Source of the DNA: Flavobacteriales bacterium
Lineage (GTDB): Bacteria; Bacteroidota; Bacteroidia; Flavobacteriales_D; Crocinitomicaceae
Direction: 5' to 3'
DNA length: 64,000 nucleotides
Assembly: GCA_947462255.1 (NCBI GenBank)
Contig: CANHOA010000007.1
Coordinates: 1-64,000, forward strand
The notes beneath the pieces were generated by a model. The model was not told the origin of the DNA. It was given only the letters and a program-made list of their open reading frames with translations, and made no database searches. The translations under genes and the position numbers were made by a program. Position 1 is the stretch's first letter. The number at the start of each line of letters is the position of its first letter. Shown one piece after another: positions 30,137 through 33,868 of the stretch.

Positions 30137-30209
30137 GATTCCTTAGCTCAGCTGGTAGAGCAATACACTTTTAATGTATGGGCCCTGGGTTCGAATCCCA
30201 GAGGGATCA
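30137..30209 (+). tRNA. tRNA-Lys (anticodon TTT)
   Basis: 73 nt. Acceptor stem GATTCCT (30137-30143) pairs with AGGGATC (30202-30208) with one G-U; D arm GCTC/GAGC at 30146-30149 and 30158-30161; anticodon stem ATACA/TGTAT with loop CTTTTAA (30068-74 of the arm, at 30168-30174) gives anticodon TTT at 30170-30172; T arm CTGGG/CCCAG with TTCGAAT. Discriminator A at 30209. The genomic 3' end continues CAA, so CCA must be added after transcription. Confidence 0.97.
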
Positions 30210-30210
30210 C

Positions 30211-30261
30211 AAAAAGAGAGTGAGAAGCAGAGCGAGAGCGATGATTTCTTACTCTCTTTTT
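30211..30261 (+). terminator. Hairpin terminator of tRNA-Lys
   Basis: AAAAAGAGAGT (30211-30221) is a perfect 11-bp complement of ACTCTCTTTTT (30251-30261), with a 29-nt loop and a T5 run at the end. It starts two bases after the tRNA and so probably ends its transcript. The same hairpin recurs at 30572-30644 with a longer loop. Confidence 0.65.
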
Positions 30262-30266
30262 ACTTC
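30231..30266 (+). repeat. 36-bp direct repeat, copy 1 of 3
   Basis: Begins AGCGAGAGCGATGATTTC and ends at TTTTTACTTC. Copies at 30231-30266, 30308-30343 (one mismatch) and 30614-30649. Copies 1 and 3 form the 3' half of the hairpins that follow the tRNA end and its duplicate; copy 2 lacks the partner arm. Confidence 0.9.
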
Positions 30267-30267
30267 A

Positions 30268-30295
30268 TTCTCTTTCTCTTTCTCTTTCTCTTTCT
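30268..30295 (+). repeat. Hexanucleotide tandem repeat (TTCTCT)
   Basis: About 4.7 tandem units of TTCTCT between the first and second 36-bp repeats. Non-coding; likely to vary in length by slippage. Confidence 0.9.
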
Positions 30296-30307
30296 GTTAT
30301 TTTTTAT

Positions 30308-30343
30308 AGCGAGAGCGATGATTTCTTGCTCTCTTTTTACTTC
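30308..30343 (+). repeat. 36-bp direct repeat, copy 2 of 3
   Basis: Same as 30231-30266 apart from one A-to-G change, which breaks the ACTCTC arm to GCTCTC. No AAAAAGAGAGT arm lies just upstream. Confidence 0.9.
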
Positions 30344-30371
30344 GAACTCATTCTCTTTCTGTTACTTGAAT

Positions 30372-30452
30372 AAAGCCCAAACTATGCGTAGCATAGTGGA
30401 CTCTATGCTTGGACTGAGCCAAAGACAGGGTTCATGAAATACTCCCAGAGGG
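30372..30452 (+). repeat. 81-bp direct repeat, copy 1
   Basis: Begins AAAGCCCAAACTATGCG and ends TACTCCCAGAGGG; the second copy is 114 bp further on (30486-30566) with two differences. Inside is a small perfect palindrome, CTATGC-GTA-GCATAG, followed by another CTATGC that could pair alternatively. The last 10 bases (TCCCAGAGGG) equal part of the tRNA-Lys 3' end. Confidence 0.9.
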
Positions 30453-30485
30453 CAGGAACTTGTTCCTGTAAGCGAGAAAAATAGA

Positions 30486-30566
30486 AAAGCCCAAACTATG
30501 CGTAGCATAGTGGACGCTATGCTTGGACTGAACCAAAGACAGGGTTCATGAAATACTCCCAGAGGG
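30486..30566 (+). repeat. 81-bp direct repeat, copy 2
   Basis: Second copy of 30372-30452; at its right end it runs straight into the 30-base copy of the tRNA-Lys 3' end. Confidence 0.9.
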
Positions 30567-30649
30567 ATCACAAAAAGAGAGTGAGACCGCGCAGGAGCAC
30601 CGAAGGTAAACAGAGCGAGAGCGATGATTTCTTACTCTCTTTTTACTTC
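30557..30649 (+). repeat. Duplicate of tRNA-Lys 3' end plus terminator
   Basis: 30557-30586 is identical over 30 bases to 30196-30225, which covers the T-arm 3' strand, the acceptor 3' strand and the left terminator arm. The right arm ACTCTCTTTTT recurs at 30634-30644. The loop is 51 nt instead of 29 because of an extra CCGCGCAGGAGCACCGAAG-type insertion. No other part of a tRNA is present, so it is a partial copy. The remaining non-coding stretch to 30741 shows nothing further. Confidence 0.85.
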
Positions 30650-30741
30650 GTTGAAGTTCTGTATTAATTAATGCTAAAGTTCAGGATTTATCAACGTTTC
30701 AATGGATTTTATCTATTCTTTGCTGACATTATACACAATGC

Positions 30742-31315: not shown

Positions 31316-33868
31316 TTAAATTATTTCAAGAATTTCTGGTTTAGTTATGTAGGATGTTCCATTTATGTGAGAACCGAAGCCAACTTTTTCCCAAAAACGA
31401 TTGTCTCCTCTATCAAAATAAGTTCTAAGGACAGGGTCGGCAGAATCAAATCCCCCCCCCTTTTGTAGCCAAGTATACTCCAAATAAGTTATAGCTTCTC
31501 CTTTTTTTAATTTAGATTTTTCTTTACTGTAATGATATGCTTTAAACTCAACTATTGAACCCTTTTTTATGATTCTTTTGCTATTAAATTCGGAAATAAT
31601 ATCGCTTTTTATTTTTACTGCAAATTTTATTGTTTGAATAGTTATACCTAAATATAATAAAATATTCCTTGCAGCTATATTTTCGCCGCCATCACAATTG
31701 TTTTTAGAGTTTAAATAAAATAGCTGAAGATATTTTAAATGGTTTAAGTTTTTTACTTTAACCAAAACTTGATCTTCAATTATTTTACCTTCTTTTGCTA
31801 TTTTAATTAAAGGTTCAATATCATTTTCTGAAAATGAATTTTGTTTAATTAAAAATAGTTCCTCAATATTTTTACCTTTATTATGACAAAATCCATTATT
31901 ATCAACTAAGAATTCCTCACCGCTCTGAATGATAAAGAACCAATTAGGTACTTTTGCGGTTTTAATTTGACTATAATATCCTTTTTTCTTAAAATTATCC
32001 AAGACAATATTTCCAGACTGATCAATCAAATAATCGAAATAATCTCCATAGCCTTTTTGAAGCCCAAAATAAAAACCAAATTTACTAATATCTTCATAAT
32101 CATGGTCGACTTTAATATCCTTCCAATCACCGGTTAACCAGTCTATTAAAAGTAACTCAGAATGATTATAATTTTTAATAAATAAAGAGGTGAGTGTATT
32201 GTAATTATCAGCATAACCCTTTGGTTTTCCCAGTGAATAAATTGTTTGGTTGTTTTTTAGACTTACTATCTCTTTGTAATCATCATCAAGCCAAAAATAT
32301 TTTTCTCCAATTTCATTATAAGACCCAAAGTCTTTAACTATATGATTTCCTAAAGTATCAATGCAAAATAGCTTGGTGTATTTTTCAAATTCACTAATCT
32401 GCTTACCATCCTTAAAATACTTTACGAATGTTTTATCTTTAATTTCATAAAAATAAGTGTCAAATTTAACTTCAAAATAACCCTTAAAAACTCTTGTGAC
32501 ACTTTCGCCTTGTTTTAAAGTAAAATCAAGTTTAAATTCCTCAAGTGATTCTGTTTTTTCAATAAATCGAAAATATCTAGAATTAGTATTTTTCTCAAAT
32601 ACTATACTAAAATTATTATCACCCAAATATGAGCACCAACTATATGAATCAATTAAAACTTTACCATTTAAATACAAGAGCTGTTTTTTATCTCCTGCTG
32701 TTTCAAAAAAACCATAACCAATAGTAGATACATTGTTAAAATTTGATTTATAGAATGTTTTGTTTTCTAAATCAATAAATGATTGTTTTTCATTTGTTAC
32801 CTTTACAGGTATCAATCCACGATAGCTGTGCTCAAAATAAAATCTTTCTTTTGATTTTAATTGATTAAAAATCTCTTTTCTAGATTTTTCTATATAGTAA
32901 TTATTTGTATCATTTTGATCAATTCGTTTAAAGCCATTTAAAACTTCTTCGCCAAGTTTATTTATCATTATATCACTACTCGAGCTAAGATAAACAAACG
33001 CAACTCCATTATCAAAAAAAGGTCCTGCATATTTATATTTGGGCTTTATTACCCAATTCATTTTAATATCTACGTACCCCCATAACTTTTCACCTTCCTT
33101 ACTTTGATAGGGTATTAATACAGATTTTAGAATGTCTTCTTTCCTTTTTCTTTCAATTTCAGTAACTAATTCAGCGTCTTTTCTTTTTTTATCTTCAAGA
33201 TGCTTTAATTCTTCATCTTTTCTTTTCTGGGCCTCTTGAATTATATGATTCTTTTGTCTCTCCTCCTCCTCTTGAGCCGCTATTTTTGCTAATTTAAAAT
33301 TTAGTTCATGTTCTTTTTTAGCTAATTCTTCTTCCTTTATTTTTAGCAGATCTTCTTTACTTTGAGTTTTGTTTACTTTAATTTCTTCGGTAAGAATTTT
33401 TGCTTTTCCTTGCTTCTTAATTATTTCAGATTTTAATGCTGAAAATTCACAAACCGTTTTAAGAGCTAATGCGATAAATTCAGGAAGTATTGAACTTATC
33501 TTCTCAAATAATTGATTAAGTGCGGGATTTTCATTCAAGTTTACTTTCCAAACCAATCGGATTCCATTTTCATTTTTAATTATATGGTTTACATTATCTT
33601 TTGACAAAGCCTCAACTTTGTTTAAGATTTCATTAAATCCAACAGTCGGTTCAGCAGAATAAAATCCCAAATGCACTTCCGTTTCGCCTTTATCGTTTGG
33701 CTCCTGAACTCGCCATGAAATATCTTCCCAGTATGGTTTGTCTTGATGAATCTTTGCAAGCCATTGTTTTTTTTGAGGAGCATAAGTTACTTTACTAATC
33801 TTTGTATCTGTAAGAGCGTCAACCTTTAAAGAAATTCTCTTTAAAAGATCTATTGCATTTTGTTCCAT
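31316..33868 (-). CDS. Large unrecognised protein: N-domain, coiled coil, WG repeats
   Basis: 850 aa, no signal peptide. Residues 1-160 are a mixed domain (VTYAPQKKQWLAKI, VHLGFYSAEP, RLVWKVNLNEN). About 165-250 is a charged coiled coil rich in Glu/Lys/Gln (KEEELAKKEHELNFKLAK). From about 255 strand-rich repeats begin; LWGYVDIKMNWVIKPKYKYAGPFFDNGVAFV is a recognisable WG (KWG) repeat, and later ones are diverged. A C-terminal module from about 750 holds IIKKGSIVEFKAYHYS and a G9 nucleotide tract (codons about 800-803). Its base composition looks poorer in G+C than the flanking genes. Function unknown; with the gene at 30742 it may form an accessory unit. Confidence 0.7.
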   Translation of the reverse strand: MEQNAIDLLKRISLKVDALTDTKISKVTYAPQKKQWLAKIHQDKPYWEDISWRVQEPNDKGETEVHLGFYSAEPTVGFNEILNKVEALSKDNVNHIIKNENGIRLVWKVNLNENPALNQLFEKISSILPEFIALALKTVCEFSALKSEIIKKQGKAKILTEEIKVNKTQSKEDLLKIKEEELAKKEHELNFKLAKIAAQEEEERQKNHIIQEAQKRKDEELKHLEDKKRKDAELVTEIERKRKEDILKSVLIPYQSKEGEKLWGYVDIKMNWVIKPKYKYAGPFFDNGVAFVYLSSSSDIMINKLGEEVLNGFKRIDQNDTNNYYIEKSRKEIFNQLKSKERFYFEHSYRGLIPVKVTNEKQSFIDLENKTFYKSNFNNVSTIGYGFFETAGDKKQLLYLNGKVLIDSYSWCSYLGDNNFSIVFEKNTNSRYFRFIEKTESLEEFKLDFTLKQGESVTRVFKGYFEVKFDTYFYEIKDKTFVKYFKDGKQISEFEKYTKLFCIDTLGNHIVKDFGSYNEIGEKYFWLDDDYKEIVSLKNNQTIYSLGKPKGYADNYNTLTSLFIKNYNHSELLLIDWLTGDWKDIKVDHDYEDISKFGFYFGLQKGYGDYFDYLIDQSGNIVLDNFKKKGYYSQIKTAKVPNWFFIIQSGEEFLVDNNGFCHNKGKNIEELFLIKQNSFSENDIEPLIKIAKEGKIIEDQVLVKVKNLNHLKYLQLFYLNSKNNCDGGENIAARNILLYLGITIQTIKFAVKIKSDIISEFNSKRIIKKGSIVEFKAYHYSKEKSKLKKGEAITYLEYTWLQKGGGFDSADPVLRTYFDRGDNRFWEKVGFGSHINGTSYITKPEILEII
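31452..31460 (-). repeat. Homopolymer G9 tract inside the 850-aa gene
   Basis: Nine C on the plus strand (nine G in the coding strand) encode the last base of Lys and Gly-Gly-Gly. It is in frame as given; gain or loss of one base would replace about the last 48 residues. Confidence 0.9.

Follow-up and report, generated by a model that had tools for sequence, protein, structure and literature searches.

The tRNA-Lys locus studied here is best explained as an array of the type of the tRNA-linked repeats (TLRs) of E. coli, with an origin by template switching and a function as a read-through RNA; we put the probability of this reading at roughly 0.65. The sole tRNA gene detected in the window, i.e. 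in the whole 64,000-nt stretch of DNA that was analysed, is tRNA-Lys(ttt) (ARAGORN; Rfam tRNA match 30137–30209). In the proposed array this gene would be followed by a terminator (T1), two hairpin-rich units, each with an imitation of the T-arm and some tail bases, a full copy of the tRNA tail and a second terminator (T2). Coordinates are collected in Table 1.

Table 1. Features of the tRNA-Lys array, in window positions
Feature	Position	Strand	Evidence
tRNA-Lys(ttt) gene, with the proximal tail at 30196–30210	30137..30210	+	ARAGORN, Rfam, repeat D5
Proximal terminator T1, 'gcgagagcgat' loop type (in genomes G021 and G006 only behind the distal tail)	30211..30261	+	Inverted repeat I5, comparison with G021 and G006
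T1 loop and right arm repeated	30308..30366	+	Repeat family D1, 88% to 30231–30289
Hairpin-rich unit 1, closed by a T-arm imitation with 10 tail bases (until about 30452)	30334..30449	+	R1 match, E 1.1e-8; D3
Hairpin-rich unit 2, ending in a T-arm imitation, then the full tail copy	30446..30563	+	R1 match, E 1.2e-16 (overlapping window sequence was among the building sequences of R1); D3
Distal tail copy of tRNA-Lys (15 nt, exact), at +347	30557..30571	+	Repeat D5
Distal terminator T2, arms as in T1, longer loop (same type here in G021 and G006)	30572..30645	+	Inverted repeat I8, D1 copy 30614–30672

A sequence-only reading of this DNA had described thirty bases of tail and left terminator arm as copied exactly 361 bp downstream, with the right terminator arm also present there and a longer loop. 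Our repeat search confirms this: 30196–30225 and 30557–30586 are identical (repeat D5, 100%, spacing 361), and the repeat consists of 15 nt of tRNA-Lys tail and 15 nt of trailer. The arms of T1 (30211–30226 and 30246–30261) are 19 nt apart, those of T2 (30572–30586 and 30630–30644) 43 nt apart. The repeat of the tail with the left terminator arm is not a chance event, as an exact 30-mer repeat inside 455 nt is expected with a probability of roughly 1e-13 (an estimate from about 1e5 pairs times 4^-30). Three features had been overlooked in that reading. An 81-nt unit (D3) lies twice between the two tail copies, at 30372–30452 and 30486–30566, with 98% identity; an extra copy of the terminator loop region is found near 30308–30338; and other tRNAs of the window genome (G000) have tail copies of this kind as well. 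Both D3 units terminate in a T-arm with a changed loop and in tail bases, the second continues into the distal tail copy, and the full tail and second terminator come only after this last unit.

Comparison of tRNA-Lys loci accounts for the length of the match. In G021 and G006 a GTCC-type terminator comes first after the gene, then a single unit, the tail copy and lastly a terminator of the 'gcgagagcgat' type, while the window genome has two units and the 'gcgagagcgat' terminator in both the proximal and the distal places. The match reaches 30 nt because the distal terminator type occupies the proximal place too. Upstream of tRNA-Lys in the window the domain scan of flanking proteins finds a shikimate kinase gene, which apparently precedes it in several relatives too (by eye), and the downstream sides vary. 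Elsewhere in the window we noticed a run of nine C at 31452–31460, near the 3' end of a minus-strand gene (31316–33868, one WG-repeat match), which is perhaps a slippage-prone tract.

Tail copies are frequent behind the tRNA genes of the genus. We took five same-genus genomes (G000, G015, G002, G020 and G022) with 157 tRNAs, 150 of them with at least 300 nt downstream, and counted as a copy any exact match of at least 13 nt of the tRNA's last 20 nt within 700 nt downstream. A same-strand copy of its own tail follows 20 of the 150 genes (7/28, 5/31, 2/28, 3/33 and 3/30 in the order of genomes given), with matched lengths of 13–20 nt within the last 20 nt; no own-tail copy was found on the opposite strand or upstream of these 150 genes. 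Swapping tails between tRNAs gave a mean of 0.18 and a maximum of 2 in 50 rounds, the first 20 nt of the tRNA gave 1 copy downstream and 5 upstream, and the anticodon region gave 1. Beyond the genus, 3 of 30 tRNA genes in a genome of the same family (G135) and 2 of 31 in one of another family of the order (G026, where the tRNA-Asn repeats form three tandem copies) have such copies, again with none on the opposite strand or upstream. These counts support the suggestion of a tail-copying repeat family, as does the variation in presence and absence among relatives; the link to tRNA ends holds.

The copies are direct, lie downstream and start preferentially at T-loop position 58. Among 23 copies the first identical base is position 58 in 15, 57 in three, 62 in two and 60, 56 and 17 once each, so that 20 of the 23 begin at 56–60, and T-arm-like bases are retained upstream of the tail in many of them. 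Behind 15 of 22 tail copies stands a terminator-like signal, versus 28 of 750 random places; the 150 tRNAs themselves have one in 94 cases. Hairpins directly before the copy are in moderate excess only: arms of at least 6 stand there in 8/23 copies versus 15% of 804 background places, and arms of at least 5 in 13/23 versus 30%.

Several loci deserve mention in their own right. The distal tail behind tRNA-Arg(tct) of G015 (L114) is unlike the present tRNA and equals the tail of tRNA-Arg(tct) in G000, so it is possibly the fossil of a former tail. By eye, the tRNA-Asn tail copies of L116 (G015) and L137 (G002) carry different palindromes at the same T-loop place, and upstream of tRNA-Arg(tct) and tRNA-Met of G000 (L004 and L008) stand copied tRNA 5' ends that contain a palindrome. 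Frames resembling GIY-YIG endonucleases lie within tail-flanked blocks at tRNA-Phe of G015 (L115), where the block is tandemly repeated, and at tRNA-Asn of G000 (L030, G000:C28). A motif scan of the loci gave five such frames, three of which look real, at these same two tRNAs; G000 as a whole has 6 GIY-YIG matches, two of them at tRNA-Asn. We considered these endonucleases as drivers of the process and rejected them.

The hairpin-rich element itself was modelled from an alignment of sixteen units (covariance model R1). Its structure has 19 pairs in four helices, with 96.2% of cells paired versus 77.6% in shuffles (0/500 as high). Pairs with double changes number 12 versus 8.0 in shuffles (3/500), and the covariation score is 0.514 versus 0.175 (0/500), sliding giving no more than 0.168. 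In further pair types the alignment does not surpass the shuffles (181/500). Both-side changes occur in 21 cells of helix 1, and in the first two helices taken together double changes affect 49 cells and one-sided changes 7. As double changes so far exceed one-sided ones, selection on an RNA competes here with palindrome-correcting mutation as the explanation.

R1 matches 25 of 31 same-genus genomes (E up to 0.01). In an order-wide sample 59 of 299 genomes match (E up to 1e-4), of which 31, out of at least 45 sampled, belong to the genus, 20 to other genera of the family and 8, with weaker scores, to other families. The exact linker pattern occurs in 24 stretches that by title belong to Flavobacteriales (11), Crocinitomicaceae (2), Bacillales (five) and, with one each, Fluviicola, Cryomorphaceae, Flavobacteriia, Bacteroidetes, Chitinophaga and Chryseobacterium; the five from Bacillales (Fictibacillus, Paenibacillus) may be chance.

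The element is tied to tRNA trailers. In the five genomes with known tRNAs 24 of 30 R1 matches are located downstream of a tRNA. We examined 71 of 86 matches, the other 15 being duplicates from overlapping loci, echoes on the opposite strand and matches that were truncated, partial or weak; 54 of the 71 have a same-strand tRNA upstream. The element starts 41–46 nt past the tRNA end in 42 of these 54, and at 124–387 nt in the remaining 12. Eight of the 17 matches without a tRNA lie close to a contig end (L225, L231, L233). The other nine are spread over seven loci; by eye, five of these loci have a tRNA-like tail ahead of a terminator and two have a Met-like tail downstream of the element. It should be noted that the search made no use of tRNA positions, and that the set of matches leans to tRNA trailers since R1 was built from units behind tRNAs.

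A tail copy is not obligatory for the element, and the full tail is often missing. Sixteen of the 54 elements have 16–17 of 17 tail bases; the median is 10/17, compared with a mean of 8.75 for the tails of other tRNAs, and the own tail is strictly the best of 21 in 22 of the 54. Some tail copies in turn lack the modelled element, for instance those of Ser-gct in G000, those of Phe and Asn in G015, and the almost complete tRNA-Met copy in G002. Of the tail-copy loci in other genera, R1 matches two of three in G135 and, with a weak score, one of two in G026. Related internal elements stand behind Lys, Arg, Ser, Leu and Met tRNAs.

Filled and emptier sites occur among related species, and terminators and elements are common to different tRNA genes of one genome. 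The trailers of Arg-acg and Arg-tcg resemble each other within a genome, with 93% identity over 156 nt in G020 and 87% over 189 nt in G015. In G022 the tRNA-Arg(tcg) locus differs from that of G020 by an extra block with one more copy of the same unit. At tRNA-Ser(gga) of G022 the gene is followed by about 108 nt with a different terminator and by a second tail, and the sequence beyond aligns to the trailer of G020. To this extent the earlier idea of a nested insertion point holds, as in this one comparison a block and a tail do stand between the tRNA and a stretch that aligns to another species' trailer; the emptier site in G020 does not separate att integration from some other kind of insertion. 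In a comparison with 355 collected loci this Ser-gga insert has only one match elsewhere, of 43 nt at 84%. As a separate observation, the tRNA-His trailer of L041 (G000) holds the tail and terminator of tRNA-Met, 87% over 184 nt.

The closest known counterpart is found in E. coli. In the part of PMC8144298 used here, TLRs are said to have been first described in 1978 and to have 'no known function'; 22 of them, a count for which the paper cites Rudd 1999, lie at ten loci, and each has 18–19 bp at its 3' end that are identical to the last bases of the tRNA or rRNA gene upstream. According to the same part, rrA, rrB and rrF have a terminator on either side and are transcribed, with Hfq and CsrA as binding proteins, and the authors suggest that the TLR copy is an RNase E processing signal. 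Looking at E. coli K-12 ourselves, we find three exact repeats of the final 19 nt of tyrV, at +160, +338 and +516. The end of the rrnB 5S gene recurs at +156, where by eye a hairpin precedes the copy and a terminator follows it.

Like the TLRs (RtT/RttR behind tyrT-tyrV, RrA/RrB/RrF behind rRNA operons), the flavobacterial units lie on the same strand directly after the tRNA gene (or, in E. coli, also the 5S gene), repeat, in part of the cases, the end of the upstream gene at their own 3' end and occur one to several per locus. The tyrV copies start at the same T-loop base, 58, as the flavobacterial ones; a hairpin ahead of the tail copy and a terminator behind it are seen at rrnB too, and the position between two terminators is that of rrA, rrB and rrF. 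Both systems share the order tRNA, terminator, hairpins, tail copy, terminator. Set against the 18–19 bp of E. coli, the tail measures 15 nt (30 nt in all) at the window locus, and 13–20 nt in the tail copies, but 16–17 of 17 bases are found in just 16 of the 54 elements. The flavobacterial tails differ in mostly lacking CCA and in being kept in full by only part of the elements. Another difference is an internal complement to the tail: within the RttR unit (L267), 10 nt are complementary to the unit's own tail copy, and no such stretch is seen in the flavobacterial units (5.2 nt for own versus 5.0 nt for swapped tails, 22 copies).

The covariance models give no cross-match. Rfam RtT (RF00391) has three matches in the E. 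coli locus and none in nine flavobacterial loci, and R1 has none, with E up to 1, in L267 or in L356, which ends inside the rrB region. It appears, then, that the flavobacterial element has a TLR-type construction with no detectable homology to the E. coli TLRs, and we regard this reading of the family as quite probable. A literature search, mostly of papers outside subscription, recognised no such repeats outside E. coli.

How the tail came to be copied is a matter of weighing. One way would be that tRNA T-arms, which have approximately AATCC in common at 58–62, recombine or serve for template switching: a cassette from another tRNA's trailer would end in its own AATCC, and copying there would re-enter the tail of the recipient. 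Because copying would return at the shared AATCC, the tail would match the host tRNA from about position 58. We hold copying at these shared bases only tentatively, at a little under even odds. Simple tandem duplication, in which unequal exchange duplicates tRNA 3' ends with their trailers and decay and palindromes follow, with no function and no mobile unit, would account for the loci where the tail is repeated with the same terminator (Leu-gag in G000, Val and Met in G002, Phe in G015, Arg-acg in G020, Arg-tcg in G022), for the additional unit of G022 Arg-tcg and for the nearly whole, palindrome-containing tRNA-Met copy in G002. It is nevertheless unlikely, given that the copy boundary clusters at T-loop 58, that the G022 Ser-gga insert has a terminator differing from that of the trailer behind it and that one element family stands behind many different tRNAs. 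A mature tRNA tail that is reverse transcribed with a stop near base 58 was set aside, because the copies continue into the trailer and most tails have no CCA.

Integrative elements usually take the part of a tRNA gene from the T-loop to its end as their att segment. A tyrosine integrase working in trans could have used this part and left attL and attR copies, so that the units would be scars or minimal forms; the presence of an old trailer behind the distal tail agrees with this, and the direct downstream copy of a tRNA 3' part is what island ends also show (the part of PMC9897764 used here describes incomplete tRNA copies there). That the locus is an att-like scar, as had been proposed earlier, is nonetheless improbable: five flanking proteins contain no integrase domain, the units are only about 0.1–0.4 kb long and occur in tandem, in G026 Asn even in three copies, and related internal sequence is found at tRNAs with different tails. 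Still further down we place target-site duplication by a transposase or a Cas1-like integrase, with the tail duplicated at insertion. The recipient-specific tail at both ends, the hairpin excess next to the copy and the one Y1 transposase match in the genome (L248, G000:C2) would suit it, but the copied lengths vary, T-arm-like bases upstream of the tail are kept in many copies and the repeats seen by eye on either side of the transposase gene are different ones, of the AACCCTTTCAGGGTTG type. For this last reason the Y1 transposase was also rejected as the author of the palindromes. REP/REPIN-type sequences resemble the units in being small palindromes with variable paired arms; they differ from them in that the units have a fixed place behind tRNAs and a tail copy and that the Y1 match lies among other repeats.

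For the TLR-type array that we prefer, a function can be proposed from RrA, RrB and RrF of E. coli. Read-through of T1 would yield a small structured RNA, its 3' end processed at the tRNA-like tail before T2, and by this analogy we infer a read-through RNA with a tRNA-like 3' end. An RNA from a tRNA trailer is also a possible parallel to E. coli 3'ETS-leuZ (3' external transcribed spacer RNA; PMC8144298), for which the part of that paper used here mentions no tail copy.

A bolder and rather unlikely generalisation would see TLRs as minimal mobile elements that inhabit tRNA trailers in two or more phyla; a dedicated process would insert a hairpin cassette at T-loop 57|58 and copy the recipient's tail to the far end. 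If that were true, the tRNA would remain intact and the element would acquire a tRNA-like, processable 3' end. A repeated tRNA tail need not signal an integrated island. With a second TLR-like family, lacking detectable homology to the first and present in many related Flavobacteriales genomes, the origin of TLRs and the role of the tail as a processing signal become testable by comparison and by mapping of RNA ends.
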